From Otis tarda (lineage: Eukaryota; Chordata; Aves; Otidiformes; Otididae), in assembly GCA_026413225.1 (NCBI GenBank), contig CM048554.1, forward strand, positions 74,640,463 through 74,704,462: 64,000 bases of DNA, in the 5' to 3' direction. The position numbers and the translations under genes were made by a program. Below are positions 39,130 to 45,575 of the stretch, piece by piece. Every line of letters begins with the position of its first letter. Position 1 is the first letter of the stretch. The notes under the pieces are model-generated. The model had not been told where the DNA came from, ran no database searches, and was given only the letters and a program-made list of their open reading frames with translations.

Positions 39130-42100
39130 AGAAAAGAAAGTAAAATGAAACTCTGTCCAAGAAAATTCTTGGAGTTGTCTCAGAATTTTAAAACAAGTGC
39201 ATAGAAGACAGAGGGTTCATCTTCCCTATATTTCTGTAGAAAATCTATAGCCTGTAAATCTTTTCTCAGATTACAAACTGAGTTAACTTTCTTCTGTTCC
39301 AGGCATAAAACTAGTTACTGGGGTTTTTTTTTGTAAAGTCATGTGCTTCACGATAAGCAGGTCCTAAAGCACATATTTTTTTATGTTGAATTAAAGCCAG
39401 TTCATCAAGTTAATATCCTGTGATATAATTATGAGAAGAAGTTGGGCTGCTACAGAAAAGCAACTTTTCATCCCTTCATCTTCCTCTATCCCCAGCTTCC
39501 TGCATGTCAAATATCTGATACTCCGTGCGTCTAGAGATCTGTTCTGTCAGCACCAGCAAAGCAGGGATTAAGGGTTTATCTCAGTCTCCATGGCATCCTA
39601 TATATATTTTGAAGAAAACCTTTTGTCATAGGAAGTGGATACTGAGAGCCACAAAGGTACTTTGTGATCTACTCTGCCATTGGGATAATTTTTTTGCATT
39701 GTACAGTTCCTTTTCCCATAAGTTATAACTGACATTAGATTTTCTAGATTAATTTGGCTTCACACTTCCTTCGGTTCCACACCAAAGGAATTATGATGCC
39801 AAAGGAGGCACACTCACTACTGTGGTACTGCAAGATAAGAAAGTTTCTGAAATAACACTAGTCCTGAAACACATTTATTCTCAACAAACAGCTCAATTAC
39901 CAACTCCCAAACTGATCTACACAGAGGCACATTCTGTTAGACTTTAAATATTCCATGAAATATCACTTGAAAGCTGGACAACATGAGACTATACAGTTCA
40001 GTTTATGAGACAGTTCACTAGCCTACTTTTAAGGATTTCTGCTCCAAGGAATGAAAGACCTTTGAATTTACCAATTATATTGAGATCACCTTTAGCGCAA
40101 GCTATGTTAACATGTAAGAAAAATAGAGAACATACGTACCAAATACATGTAACAAAATTGAAAAATCTTTAGAAAGATATGAGTGGAAGTGGAAATAGAA
40201 ACACGCATATGTGTACTACTTAGAAAAGCTTTAGTGTTTCCTCTTACCCTACAGTATGCAGCTGACAAGATTAGACACTTCATGGCCTTGTCAATCTCAT
40301 TCTCTGCAAATCTTGTGTCCTTACCTTGCCTCACAGAATACTAGATTTGCTGACTCCTGCTCCTTTTTATGCCCCAGACTTTGCTTTAAGATGAGTTGAA
40401 ATGCAAGTCCAGCTCCTCCTTCTGTTCTTCCAGGGTTTCTTATCAATAGCTTCCAATAAGACGTAGTTTAAAAATTCCATCCCAAAACTATTGCTTACCT
40501 CCTTCTGCTTTAGAAATACTAATATTCCTTGGGCATACCCAGACAAGGGCATATCTTGCCCTAAAACTGAATGGAATGTGTTAATGACTGAGGTCTGTAA
40601 AGAGAAGTACTCCATTGTCATTCAAATGCCAAGGTGGAGCCTTTCACCAAAGCTTTATATTTTCATATAAACGTATAATTTGATAATTATATCTTACACG
40701 GTTATATTAGAAGAATTAACACAAGCAATCATTACTTGGTTTCATTTGAAAGTAGATACAATGGTAATTAATTGTTTCAGAATATTAATTTTTTGGGGCA
40801 TCACTAAATCCTAATCTTGTTATTGAGTACTAAGACACATTTATTTTCTTCATATTACAACAAGGAATCTCTGTATTTTCCTCCTATCCCTCTCTTAGGT
40901 AACATCTGTGATTATAGCCTCTCTAGAAATTAACTATTTGTTGAGAGGAATGCGATTCTTTGTCTCCTAACGCTGAATTCCTATACAAATCTTCTTAAAA
41001 AGATCTTCCTTGCTACACTATCCAATATTCCTAAACACCTTAAATGGGACATTTAGAGGGTACTTAAATCTACAAGAGAATGAAATTGTTTACCTAACCA
41101 TGAAGTCAGGGGAATATGTGCTTTATGGATTGCTGAATAAAAATGGCAAGTGTTACAGTTGTATAATATATGTATAGACTTGCAGTAAAACTTAAGTGCT
41201 AAAATCTGCACCACCCAGACAGCTGGATGATGAAAATGCAGCTTCAGCCAACACTGGATCCAACAAAGCTGTTGAAAGATAAGGTCAAGTTCATAATGAA
41301 GTCATCAGATGATAATCTTGTTTAAATTTTGGATAAGGTGTTTGGGTGGATGTATGGTGAGGTCATAGGAGGAAATATAACACAGACTTTAAGAAAACGC
41401 TCGGTTTCAAGTGACTGATGGAGGCAATACTGACATTGAAAATGGAATATGCAGGAGAATTAACATCAGCAGAATGTGATGGAGATTGACTGGCTATACC
41501 CTCCTTTCTCTGTATGTGGAAGAAATACAAATGCAACATGAGTGACCAGCCCTCTGAATAAATAATATTGACTTTTCAATGGTTTACTTATATATTTCAT
41601 GGATCTGTTTCTGTCAGGTGCGACTGTATAAATAAAGAAGCATATGGATTCAGACAGGATTAAAAAACAAAAGAACATCTACTAGTTTGGGTTTATGTTT
41701 TTTTTTTTTCTACATTAAGGAGGAAATTGAATCTGAATAATTTTCCTTGTAAAAAAAACAATAAATACCCTCCAAGTTTGTCTTTTTCGCATATAAAATG
41801 ACAAATTAGCTTCAATAGTTGCTCATTCAGCACAAAGAGTCTTAAAACCCTACAGAAATCCTAGTATACTTCCTGTCCCTTTTCAGTGCAGTAACATTTT
41901 TCAAAAATGAAAAAAAAAAACATTTCCTTGTAGTTGCAAATGATTTGTTAGGAATGAAAATAACCCAATTAATAAGAATAACAAAGTTTTGAAAGTCACC
42001 CACTAAAAAAATACAAGGTGTCATGGAGTGTATCAGGGATGCTAAATCTACTTAAATAATAAAGTAAATGAAAATGTAACTAGACCTAAACCTTGCAAAA

Positions 42101-42544
42101 ACACAGGTGATTTGTCAAGTCTGCTCACACAAGTGAGTCTGTGTGAGGCTGGCCTTTGGGACACAGACTTTCAAGTTACCAAGCAATTAAAGTAAGTGCA
42201 GCGTACTTCAATTTTCATTTGGTTTCAGGGAGAGGAAAGGCCCATAGGGAACCGAGCAGACTCGGGGCCCACCAGTACTGGAAATGCTGAAATCACTGCG
42301 TAGGAGTTGGCCATGGCTACTGAGTAGTAATAATAAGCATTTTCCTTCTGCCAAGAGTCATCATTAGCTTTCCCCTTTCTTTTCCTAGGGCAAGGACTAA
42401 GCTCACTTTTGGAAATAATTGTTGATAAAGCACTTAGAAATGTACAGCATAGTGACAATGCCACTAGGAAATGTTATCACTGTTCTTGCTAGAAGTAGTA
42501 GTAGTGCACAAGTATTTTCATGCTACAAAGCTCTTGACAGGCAC

Positions 42545-42549
42545 CTCTG
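42545..42549. repeat. left 5-bp target-site duplication of the ERV element
   Basis: CTCTG directly precedes TGTCGTGG, the LTR U3 end in plus orientation. The same five bases follow the other end of the element at 44336-44340. Confidence 0.85.
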
Positions 42550-42895
42550 TGTCGTGGTTTTGTTAGTGAGGGGGGGCCTAAGGTGGTAGCTTCTGCAGGA
42601 AACTGCTAGAAGTCGCTCCCCTTTGTTCAGTGGACTTGGCCAGGCCTAGGGCGGACCTGCTGCTGGCCAAGGTCGAGCGGATTGGTAGCAGAATGTCCCG
42701 TGATAACGCCTCTGCGATAACGTATTTAAGAAGGGGAAAACAGGGAAAAAAAGAGAGAAGAGAAGATGTGAAGAAGCTGAGCGGGGGCGGAGGCGCAGAG
42801 GGGGAGGCGCAGGCCTCATGGGCCTTGCAGGCCTCACCCTCTGGCCTCTTGCCAGGCGGCCAACTGGGCCCGACTCGGCCCGGCCCGGCTGCAAG
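42550..42895 (+). repeat. inverted partial LTR (U3 part), left arm
   Basis: This arm is the first 346 bases of the LTR in plus orientation, starting TGTCGTGG. It pairs with 43990-44335. Positions 42550-42849 are an exact reverse complement of the other arm; positions 42850-42895 differ at six sites, all transitions, with no insertion or deletion. It includes a TATTTAAG box (42723-42730) and a purine-rich strand at 42731-42807. Confidence 0.95.
42723..42730 (+). promoter_or_regulatory. TATA-like box of the left U3 arm
   Basis: TATTTAAG lies about 175 bases into the LTR. It points inward, toward the centre of the element. It is the best TATA-like match near the U3 start, but the distance to the poly-A signal would make a very long R region, so its use as the real promoter is uncertain. 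Confidence 0.45.
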
Positions 42896-42922
42896 ATCGC
42901 CTCTGCGAATTACGTATTTAAG
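42896..42922 (+). repeat. extra U3 fragment at the inversion junction
   Basis: CGCCTCTGCGAATTACG and TATTTAAG (42898-42922) repeat, with a small change, the U3 segment CGCCTCTGCGATAACG plus TATTTAAG at 42707-42730. It sits exactly where the left arm homology ends and the inverted leader begins. It looks like a footprint of template switching. Confidence 0.75.
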
Positions 42923-43171
42923 AATTCTAATTAAAATACACACACATCAACAGAAAAGAAAAAGAATTCCCCGCACCAAGAATCAAAATAATATCCTCAA
43001 AACACCAACTGTGGATATACCAGGCAATTTACACACAATTCACCACTTATCCCTTCACCACAATCAGAACATAAATTTTCCCCTAATCATTTTGCTCTTT
43101 TGTCAAGTTCAATCCCTGTTTTGCCCATTACCGCTCCCAATTAAACTCAATCCTTATCTCAAATTCCTTGA
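42923..43171 (-). other. retroviral leader downstream of the primer-binding site
   Basis: Read on the minus strand from the primer-binding site, this is about 250 bp of AT-rich untranslated leader, with no gag start codon followed by a long frame. It ends at the inversion junction. It contains a short GT-rich patch near 42938-42950. Confidence 0.7.
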
Positions 43172-43189
43172 GCCCCACGTTGGGCGCCA
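43172..43189 (-). promoter_or_regulatory. retroviral primer-binding site, tRNA-Lys type
   Basis: On the minus strand the 18 bases read TGGCGCCCAACGTGGGGC. This is the complement of the 3' end of the vertebrate tRNA-Lys(1,2) and is the primer site of ERVK/betaretrovirus-like elements. It lies 7 bases after the LTR end, slightly further than the usual 0-3 bases. Confidence 0.9.
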
Positions 43190-43379
43190 AAATAACTGTC
43201 GTAGTTCTGCCCTGATCAGGACCAGACTACGCAGTCTCTCTCTCACTCCCCCCACCCTCCGAGAGAACAGGGAGAGAAAATACAAGGAAAAACGGCTCGA
43301 GGTTTGAGATAAGGACAGGGAGAAATCCTTAAAGTTACCGTCACGGGCAAAACAGACTCGACTTGGGGAAAACTATTCA

Positions 43380-43385
43380 TTTATT
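43380..43385 (-). terminator. LTR polyadenylation signal AATAAA
   Basis: AATAAA on the minus strand, about 180 bases before the LTR end, marks the R/U5 neighbourhood. It is followed by GT-containing sequence. The assignment rests on position and motif only. Confidence 0.6.
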
Positions 43386-43584
43386 ACTACAAACAGCAGG
43401 ATAATGAGACAGGGAACAAGATAACCTCCATCCACCCCTCCCTCTTCCCAAGCTTAACACTATCTCTACTACCTTCCCCCCCGAGCGGCACAGGGGGAAG
43501 AGGGAATGGGGGTTGCAGTCAGTTCATCATACGTTGTTTCATGCCGCTGCTTCATGGTCGGGGGAAGAACTCCTCACATTCCTC

Positions 43585-43870
43585 CCCTGCTCCATCGTGG
43601 GGTCCCTCCCACGGGCCACAGTCCTTCACGAAACTGCTCCGGTGTGGGTCATCTCTTCCACGGAGTACAGTCTCTCCAGAACGGCTGTCCCAGCGGGCCC
43701 TCCACGGGCCACAGCCGCCTTCAGGCATCCACCTCCCCCAGTACGGGGTCCTTCACGGGCTCCAAGTGGATCTCTGCTCCTCCGTGGACCTCCATGGGCT
43801 GCAGGGGGACAACCCGCTCCACCATGGTCGTCACCACAGGCTGCAGGGGAATCTTGGCCAGGAGTCGCAT
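43585..43870. repeat. minisatellite-like GC-rich core of the LTR
   Basis: Variants of a 13-base motif, CCACGGGCCACAG (43702), the same again near 43608, CCATGGGCTGCAG (43791) and CCACAGGCTGCAG (43833), recur at irregular spacing. The block looks like an old tandem array that became part of the LTR. Confidence 0.6.
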
Positions 43871-43989
43871 TACTCCTCCCCCTCCTTTCTGAACTGACCT
43901 TGGTGTCTGCAGCCGTTCCTCACAACAGGGTGGTAGATGTCTCTCAGGATCTTTTTACATCTTATTCACTTCTCATCTCCTCTCCACTT

Positions 43990-44335
43990 CTTGCAGCCAG
44001 GCCGGACCAAGTCGGGCCCAGTCGGCTGCCTGGCGAGAGGCCAGAGGGTGAGGCCTGCAAGGCCCATGAGGCCTGCGCCTCCCCCTCTGCGCCTCCGCCC
44101 CCGCTCAGCTTCTTCACATCTTCTCTTCTCTCTTTTTTTCCCTGTTTTCCCCTTCTTAAATACGTTATCGCAGAGGCGTTATCACGGGACATTCTGCTAC
44201 CAATCCGCTCGACCTTGGCCAGCAGCAGGTCCGCCCTAGGCCTGGCCAAGTCCACTGAACAAAGGGGAGCGACTTCTAGCAGTTTCCTGCAGAAGCTACC
44301 ACCTTAGGCCCCCCCTCACTAACAAAACCACGACA
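43990..44335 (-). repeat. right arm of the 346-bp inverted repeat (LTR start)
   Basis: These are the first 346 bases of the complete LTR. They pair with 42550-42895, leaving a 1094-base loop. A transcript through the whole element could fold into a stem with 300 uninterrupted base pairs. Confidence 0.95.
44155..44162 (-). promoter_or_regulatory. TATA-like box of the complete LTR
   Basis: TATTTAAG on the minus strand is the mirror of the box at 42723. It also points inward, so the two U3 ends have convergent promoter orientation. Confidence 0.45.
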
Positions 44336-44340
44336 CTCTG
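44336..44340. repeat. right 5-bp target-site duplication of the ERV element
   Basis: CTCTG follows CCACGACA, the reverse complement of the LTR start, and matches 42545-42549. The sixth base differs on the two sides, so the duplication is 5 bp. Confidence 0.85.
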
Positions 44341-45235
44341 ACATTCACCTGCCTTCTGTTTCAGGAGGCTAACAGACATCCCTGTTGGCAGGTGGGGGAA
44401 CACAGGTAAAAAAAAAAAACCTGCTCCTGAAAATTTTTAAGAAAATTCTGGGTGTTAAGCTTGCAAGATATCAGTCTCTAAACAGCCCCATCTTCTCTGG
44501 ACGGCTTCCCCCAATGCTTTCTGCTTTCAGAGAGTAGTACTGTCAGAGGGAAGGGTAGCAGCCATTCCTCCCACATGCATTTCAATTTCAACCTTAAAGA
44601 TTCTACTACACTTTTCTTAACAATGTTAATTATTATTGTCATCAAGAATTAGTAAAATAAACCATGTCTAGACAATTTCCCTTGATATAACCTTACAGTG
44701 CATTAAAAAAAAAAAATGATTGCTTCATCAGGAGAATATTTTTCTTTCTAATAGTTGATGTTTTACCTTTGGAAATGAATATTTTAGAAATATAATTTGA
44801 GGGCATCTAAGGGTTGTAAAGTCTAGCGATGACACACCTCAGTGTTTAACAGCTTGTGCACTCTGTCTTACATTTACAGGCACCAAAGCATGTTGTTATG
44901 AGACCATAATGCACACCCTGTCATGTCTTACTGCTTAATTAGTTCACCTAGTCTGTCCACCTCGTTAAGTGCAATGGCTAACATTATATTTCCACCATTT
45001 TTTCAGATTGCTTTTAAAGCTCCCATGGGAAGGTTCTTCCACTAGTTTCTTAGCAGGATTATTTCATATTCCAGTATGTCTCTCCATTAGAATGATTTCT
45101 TTACTTGTTTTCTATTTATTTAATATCAGACAATTAAAGTATTGCTTTTCTGCATGATTGCAAGGATTTCACATCTCCTTATCACTTCCATATCTCCTAC
45201 ATCATTTATATTTCTCTCTAGTTTTGGCAAGTAAA
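44341..45235. other. AT-rich single-copy DNA, no gene recognised
   Basis: This is flanking DNA between the retroviral element and the CR1. It has short A runs at 44409-44420 and 44705-44716. No coding or RNA feature was seen. Confidence 0.6.
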
Positions 45236-45575
45236 TGCATTCTTCCAGTACCTCAAGGGGGCCTACAAGAAAGATGGGGAAAGGCTGTTTAGTAGGGCCT
45301 GTTGCAATAGGACAAGGGGTAATGGTTTTAAAATAGAGGGGGGTAGATTTAGACTGGAAATTAGGAAAAAATTTTTTACGATGCGAGTTGTAGAACACTG
45401 GAACAGGTTGCCCAGAAAGGTGGTGGAGGCCCCATCCCTGGAAACATTCAAGGCCAGGCTGGATGAGGCTCTGAGCAACCTGATCTAGTCAGGGATGTCC
45501 CTGCTCCTTGCAGGGGGGTTGAACTAGATGACATTTGAAGGTCCCTTCCAACCCTAACCATTCTATGATTCTATA
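45236..45575 (+). mobile_element. CR1 LINE, 5'-truncated, ORF2 end in frame
   Basis: This CR1 copy starts abruptly inside ORF2. From 45243 it is open for 81 codons to the TAG at 45486-45488, reading [46 protein letters not shown] and [10 protein letters not shown]. The frame is intact, and the protein words are nearly the same as in the minus-strand copy at 5147-5785, so both belong to one subfamily. The 3' part shows CTAGTCAGGGATGTCCCTG, GTTGAACTAGATGAC and GGTCCCTTCCAACC, then ends in two 8-bp tail units, ATTCTATG and ATTCTATA. The endonuclease and the RT core are absent. Confidence 0.96.

Follow-up and report, generated by a model that had tools for sequence, protein, structure and literature searches.

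Endogenous retroviral insertions with two U3 ends inside one target site duplication recur in the Otis tarda genome

The element at positions 42545-44340 of the Otis tarda window (the whole stretch of 64,000 nucleotides analysed, C3:74640463-74704462) is an insertion of a short endogenous retrovirus (ERV) family in which an inverted LTR arm places U3 at both outer ends. Including this one, eleven such two-U3 elements were found in the genome (the window element, L036, L038, L039, L040, L041, L042, L044, L049, L053 and L056). Their ends and target site duplications show that molecules with two U3 ends were integrated, and unprocessed U5 bases kept in sister loci strongly support fusion before integration. 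It is highly probable that the flipped-LTR cDNA with its two U3 ends was formed before integration. The phenomenon looks like a repeated, readable error of retroviral DNA copying and not a one-off.

Read on the minus strand, the window element runs from the full LTR through the spacer, primer-binding site (PBS) and internal region into the inverted LTR 1-347 (Table 1). The full LTR is of the TG...CA type with ends TGTCGTGG and CTACGACA, and its termini carry a 6-bp inverted repeat (TGTCGT/ACGACA). The U3 start of the inverted arm agrees with other family copies in the genome. The PBS, TGGCGCCCAACGTGGGGC, is 18 nt long and is presumably of the tRNA-Lys type. The CTCTG flanks match at a length of 5 bp and fail at 4 and 6 bp. 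An inverted pair of 348 nt was the sole one of this size in the region 41500-45500, where six others measured 20-31 nt. The preliminary description had a full LTR, PBS and leader joined to an inverted copy of the first 346 bp of the LTR, with both outer U3 ends abutting one CTCTG duplication. This structure and the direct 5-bp repeat were recovered; the arm measures 347 bp, and the presumed leader proved to be the internal region of a short element, almost complete with 300 of its 309 bp.

Table 1. Features of the two-U3 element, in positions of the window.
Feature	Position	Strand	Basis
Target site duplication, left copy, CTCTG	42545..42549		direct-repeat comparison
Inverted arm, LTR 1-347, outer end U3 (TGTCGTGG)	42550..42896	+	341/347 identity to full LTR
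Junction of LTR 347 and internal region, PPT 5' edge	42896..42897		comparison with normal copies
Internal region, short ERV	42897..43171	-	comparison with normal copies
Primer-binding site, tRNA-Lys type (presumed)	43172..43189	-	sequence
Spacer GTTATTT, 7 nt, U5 end to PBS	43190..43196	-	sequence, sister loci
Full LTR, 1139 bp, outer end U3	43197..44335	-	TATTTAA at LTR 174, AATAAA at LTR 951
Target site duplication, right copy, CTCTG	44336..44340		direct-repeat comparison

Normal copies of the family were collected from the whole assembly (1.198 Gb, 116 contigs). A U3 query gave 2717 first-look candidate places and an internal query gave 762, of which 40 each were scored, and 19 other loci were fetched with the internal query. 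As shown by the 11 fetched loci whose two ends were both readable by script, the normal design is an LTR, an internal region of 308 or 309 bp and a second LTR. A 5-bp duplication was present in nine of these 11 copies and absent from two, and their LTR pairs differed at 0-8 sites. The remaining eight loci comprised three with a truncated second LTR, three in which no 5' U3 was recognised, and two of the two-U3 type (L012, L025). At its 3' end, the normal internal region reads ...GCAGAGGCGA, followed by the PPT core GGGGTGGAA and then U3; the exact motif including the PPT core occurs at 232 places in the genome. The window element has 300 bp of internal sequence including spacer and PBS, as against 309 bp in normal copies, so exactly 9 bases of PPT core are gone at the join. 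No shared bases were seen there between LTR 347 and the internal side.

The 309-bp internal region contains stop codons in all three sense frames, and four mechanical open reading frames (121-264 aa) overlapping the window element gave no Pfam matches at E <= 0.01. The family copies are apparently short, non-autonomous elements. An autonomous partner of the family was not found in this genome; an LTR pair 10 kb apart on C3, considered as a long provirus, had a 3.5-kb middle piece with a single frame of at least 90 aa and was unsupported. Among the features of integrase-type ERVs, the window element has the TG...CA LTR, the PBS and the 5-bp duplication; the PPT is lost in this copy, and gag and pol genes are missing. 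The two marks of a flipped-LTR element, an inverted LTR copy and both U3 ends inside one duplication, are present. DIRS-type elements are not known to carry a target site duplication, and the 5-bp duplication separates the window element from them. The CpG observed/expected ratio is 0.52 in the LTR against 0.20 over the whole window, which suggests that the insertion is young.

Several other characters of the window were recorded. The internal segment before the PPT (42897-42924) is identical at 25 of 27 positions to the TATA region of U3 (score 22, shuffle maximum 15), possibly through an old duplication within the family. It was at one stage taken for an error-prone filler copied from the TATA region; that reading was dropped because normal copies carry the same pre-PPT sequence. 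The spacer between U5 and PBS (43190-43196) is 7 nt, and the usual length is about 2 nt. Such a spacer would have the integrase trim more at U5 than at U3, which may favour use of two U3 ends. On the minus strand 3' of the PBS, a short broken frame follows ATGGGCAAAACAGGG and holds two CxxC pairs. CR1-type 3' repeats gave 4 matches in the window against 0.04 expected; repeats of this type are indicative of birds or other reptiles.

Recurrence of the architecture was assessed by three screens, which rest on exact patterns and so miss diverged copies. The first used an exact pattern with the pre-PPT sequence and the PPT excluded, and its 7 places yielded six two-U3 elements (window included) and one solo LTR with its own duplication, L037, which was set aside. 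The second sought the unprocessed U5 end without a preceding PBS. Six of its 19 places were two-U3 elements (L040 and L041 again, with L044, L049, L053 and L056 new); the other 13 were odd-spaced PBS contexts, unprocessed-U5 LTRs or pieces beside other sequence, and one scrambled copy. The third, for a whole PPT without a following U3, gave two places, both left out of the count: L062 repeats the PPT region in direct orientation, and L063, which lacks a duplication, is an old copy whose inverted U3 measures 21 bp and would represent a join after the PPT. L042 was noticed as an inverted pair among the U3-query matches. Among exact-motif copies the rate was 6/238, about 2.5% (6 two-U3 and 232 normal-motif places), a figure that counts places and not elements, as some copies look tandem. 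The collections viral_contigs and genome_contigs gave no matches to the exact patterns.

Clean 5-bp duplications flank nine of the 11 two-U3 elements: CTCTG in the window, CTACC in L036, TACAG in L038, CTGCT in L039, CCTAT in L040, CTTAA in L041, AGTGG in L042, CACTG in L044 and CCAGT in L053. L049 has none, and L056 has no clean one. The junction search proposed in the preliminary description returned the window junction as a single occurrence genome-wide, with up to 2 mismatches allowed; the two-U3 architecture was met at ten more loci. The fact that the window junction is unique and that the 11 joins and their duplications differ indicates independent events.

In six of the 11 joins the internal sequence breaks off at the 5' edge of the PPT (within 2 nt), 9 or 11 nt before U3 would begin, a fraction inflated because the first screen selected joins near that edge; in the U5-end screen, which made no selection on the PPT side, two of six joins were exactly at the PPT edge and one was 17 nt upstream. 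The internal side ends after GCGA in the window element, L038, L040 and L041, and two bases earlier in L036 and L039. Elsewhere, it stops at internal position 283 in L049, at 91 in L042, and inside the first LTR in L053, L056 and L044; the joins of L042, L044, L053 and L056 are away from the PPT edge. Short flipped arms comprise LTR 1-347 in the window element, 1-367 in L039 and 1-30 in L036.

The opposite side of the joins carries a mark of cDNA. Bases 3' of U5 are lost by the 3' LTR at integration and stand beside U5 only in unprocessed cDNA or next to the PBS. At the internal join, seven of the 11 two-U3 elements preserve unprocessed U5 sequence: the complete set of seven bases in L040, L041, L044, L049, L053 and L056, and the final five of the seven in L038. 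The flipped LTR of L042 is slightly cut at its U5 end. The window element has no U5 mark because its arm is truncated, and the argument for it draws on its duplication, the position of its join at the PPT edge and the parallel with the sister loci. Microhomology at the joins, read by eye, was 0-5 nt. L040 contains a 14-nt filler exact to its own LTR (0/2000 shuffles as long), L049 a 10-nt LTR-derived filler, and L042 a 13-nt snap-back of the U5 end. Microhomology, LTR-derived fillers and snap-back are signs of polymerase template switching.

The origin of the arms was traced in eight pairs, each set against 47-60 further LTR copies that had passed a length and similarity filter; L036, whose 30-bp arm is too short for a test of origin, L044 and L049 were left out. 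The arms were mutually closest in six of the eight pairs, with one tie, and the window pair was not. The six pairs showed 0-8 differences, against 6-24 for the nearest other LTR (L038, 8 against 22; L040, 0 against 10; L041, 4 against 16; L042, 4 against 6; L053, 3 against 9; L056, 2 against 7), and the arms of L039 tied with the nearest other LTR at 2 against 2. The similarity of the arms in these six pairs and in L039 equals that between the two LTRs of a single normal provirus. L044 differed at 36/466 sites, perhaps because of age, and L049 at 32/1113 sites.

Over LTR 1-347 the window arms differ from each other at 6 sites, and from their nearest other LTRs at 2 and 4. Over LTR 1-300 there were 0/300 mismatches (nearest other LTR, 1), against 6/47 in the rest, all six within LTR 301-337 (P 4.6e-6 for uniform placement; P 0.0014 for the clustering of the five CpG-related mismatches among 20 CpG sites). 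The six sites correspond to two family haplotypes, TGACCC in the left arm and CAGTTT in the full LTR. Among 41 distinct segments, TGACCC was found in three more, CAGTTT in one more and CAGTTC in five. The presence of two haplotypes indicates that two templates or conversion after integration were involved.

Taken together, the elements' own duplications, the unprocessed U5 bases and the mutually closest arms make fusion on the cDNA, followed by integrase joining two U3 ends, the most likely course. The preliminary description had likewise proposed a palindromic cDNA first and integration by two U3 ends second, a sequence of events supported by the nine elements with their own duplications and the seven with unprocessed U5 bases. 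In standard reverse transcription, the upstream plus strand runs into the PPT primer, and U3 is where the strand primed at the PPT begins, so both of the required ends lie within one cDNA. We suggest that the upstream strand copied from the PBS would halt at the PPT RNA primer. Its stalled 3' end may then join, by a template jump of the reverse transcriptase or by end joining, the 3' end of the plus-strand segment that was primed at the PPT in that cDNA. The PPT-primed segment would be U3-R-U5 if complete and shorter otherwise, with only 347 nt in the window case. Copying back to the 5' end of this segment would regenerate the exact U3 terminus, and arm length would follow strand growth. Such a product would have R at neither RNA end and is expected to be a dead end. 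This stalled-plus-strand step is plausible, with about equal weight for and against it. The wider proposal, that in this family flipped-LTR cDNA arises regularly as a by-product of reverse transcription, accounts for a few per cent of integrants and results from a stalled plus strand jumping at the PPT, is offered tentatively. If it is true, flipped-arm length records plus-strand progress, each insertion is the fossil of a single reverse-transcription intermediate, and in vivo the integrase has no need for one U3 and one U5 end.

The main rival is itself a variant of the pre-integration picture, in which two distinct cDNAs, originating in a single particle or in two, suffered breakage and were fused head to head through host end joining ahead of integration. 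The two haplotypes at LTR 301-337 of the window arms and the divergence of the L049 arms would fit such an origin. Template-copied fillers fit the action of polymerase theta, and the LTR-derived fillers agree with it too. However, the arms are each other's closest relatives in L038, L040, L041, L042, L053 and L056, and in BLAST comparisons all 11 elements lacked a second internal region. Joining of two cDNAs is a serious rival, although an unlikely one.

Formation on the cDNA is also preferred to inversion and deletion of the 3' LTR of a normal provirus through later host repair, which we regard as quite improbable. The 6-bp inverted repeat at the LTR ends could guide a template switch, and solo LTRs (L037) and damaged copies occur; this course predicts, however, that the PPT and the processed U5 end are retained. 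The PPT core is missing in the six PPT-edge joins, and 5-7 unprocessed U5 bases stand in L038, L040, L041, L044, L049, L053 and L056. That later rearrangement would be a poor fit had been anticipated in the preliminary description, and the duplications together with the retained U5 bases match it badly.

A hairpin chimera of long reads or assembly is very improbable. Palindromic artefacts are frequent in long reads, but the outer duplications are direct and not inverted, and the 11 loci have different junctions. The outer flanks of the window element have no mutual inverted likeness (local score 9; maximum 15 in 100 shuffles), and unrelated flanks outside the duplication are evidence against a hairpin read. 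Least credible of all is a novel class of mobile element bearing U3 inverted repeats, moved like a DNA transposon by retroviral integrase in trans, since its transposon-like outer inverted repeats and 5-bp duplications stand against a window junction found once in the genome and 11 joins that all differ.

Flipped LTRs have been described before. HERV-K124 on human chromosome 4 (Shin et al. 2013, PMC3625200), in the available part of that article, has a full LTR and internal sequence with inverted truncated LTR copies, and thus shares with the window element inverted partial LTRs relative to a full one. It differs in having three LTR pieces and two internal parts (table row 968, 1171, 78, 206 and 78 bp), and the same part of PMC3625200 reports no recurrence, PPT-edge join or two U3 ends in one duplication. 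The authors, in that text, call LTR inversion rare and its mechanism unresolved, speculate on LTR inversion with template switching, and cite Hughes and Coffin 2002 for a possible mechanism. The latter work, compared by title alone, concerns one ERV relic with a DNA-transposon-like form. HERV-K124 and this relic indicate that the flipped-LTR kind is already known from single cases. The early suggestion was that the class might not be new; the inverted-LTR precedents are single human loci.

Available portions of PMC3766001 and PMC1905944 treat HIV-1 2-LTR circles and autointegration, in which, as here, cDNA ends are joined before integration, and discuss imperfect circle junctions as possible autointegration. 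The circles differ in that they have LTR-LTR junctions and are considered dead ends, whereas the window type is a linear two-U3 DNA integrated with a duplication. DIRS-1 also has inverted LTRs (PMC5633606, in the portion available), but there they belong to the ordinary design of the element, which uses a tyrosine recombinase. Those of the window family look like an accident in an integrase-type element. As far as our searches of the open-access literature show, recurrence with duplications in one genome, the unprocessed U5 end and PPT-edge joins are unreported.

The elements point to the PPT as a possible weak spot of plus-strand synthesis. In a young LTR family as large as this one (2717 first-look U3 candidates), error rate, join sites and templates can be counted. 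Annotation tools that expect direct LTR pairs may mislabel such copies as solo LTRs or inverted repeats.

Other irregular copies of the family were also observed. L047, L052, L054, L058 and L060 are single LTRs with unprocessed GTTATTT at the U5 end beside host-like flank, and in L047 the U5 end is repeated. In L051 (1014-2714), an LTR is split at about position 368/373 by scrambled inverted internal and LTR pieces; judged from this arrangement, it looks like a self-integration product. L020 (1148-2961; G000:C8:33302071-33303884) is a mirror image of the two-U3 design: its outer ends are both U5 and lie within a TCTCC duplication, and an inverted U5-R piece stands in place of the start of the 5' LTR. 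Its two-U5 design indicates that U3 ends are not the only ones open to the process. As germline fossils, these insertions show that a duplication of normal length is possible with two like cDNA ends (U3/U3, and once U5/U5).
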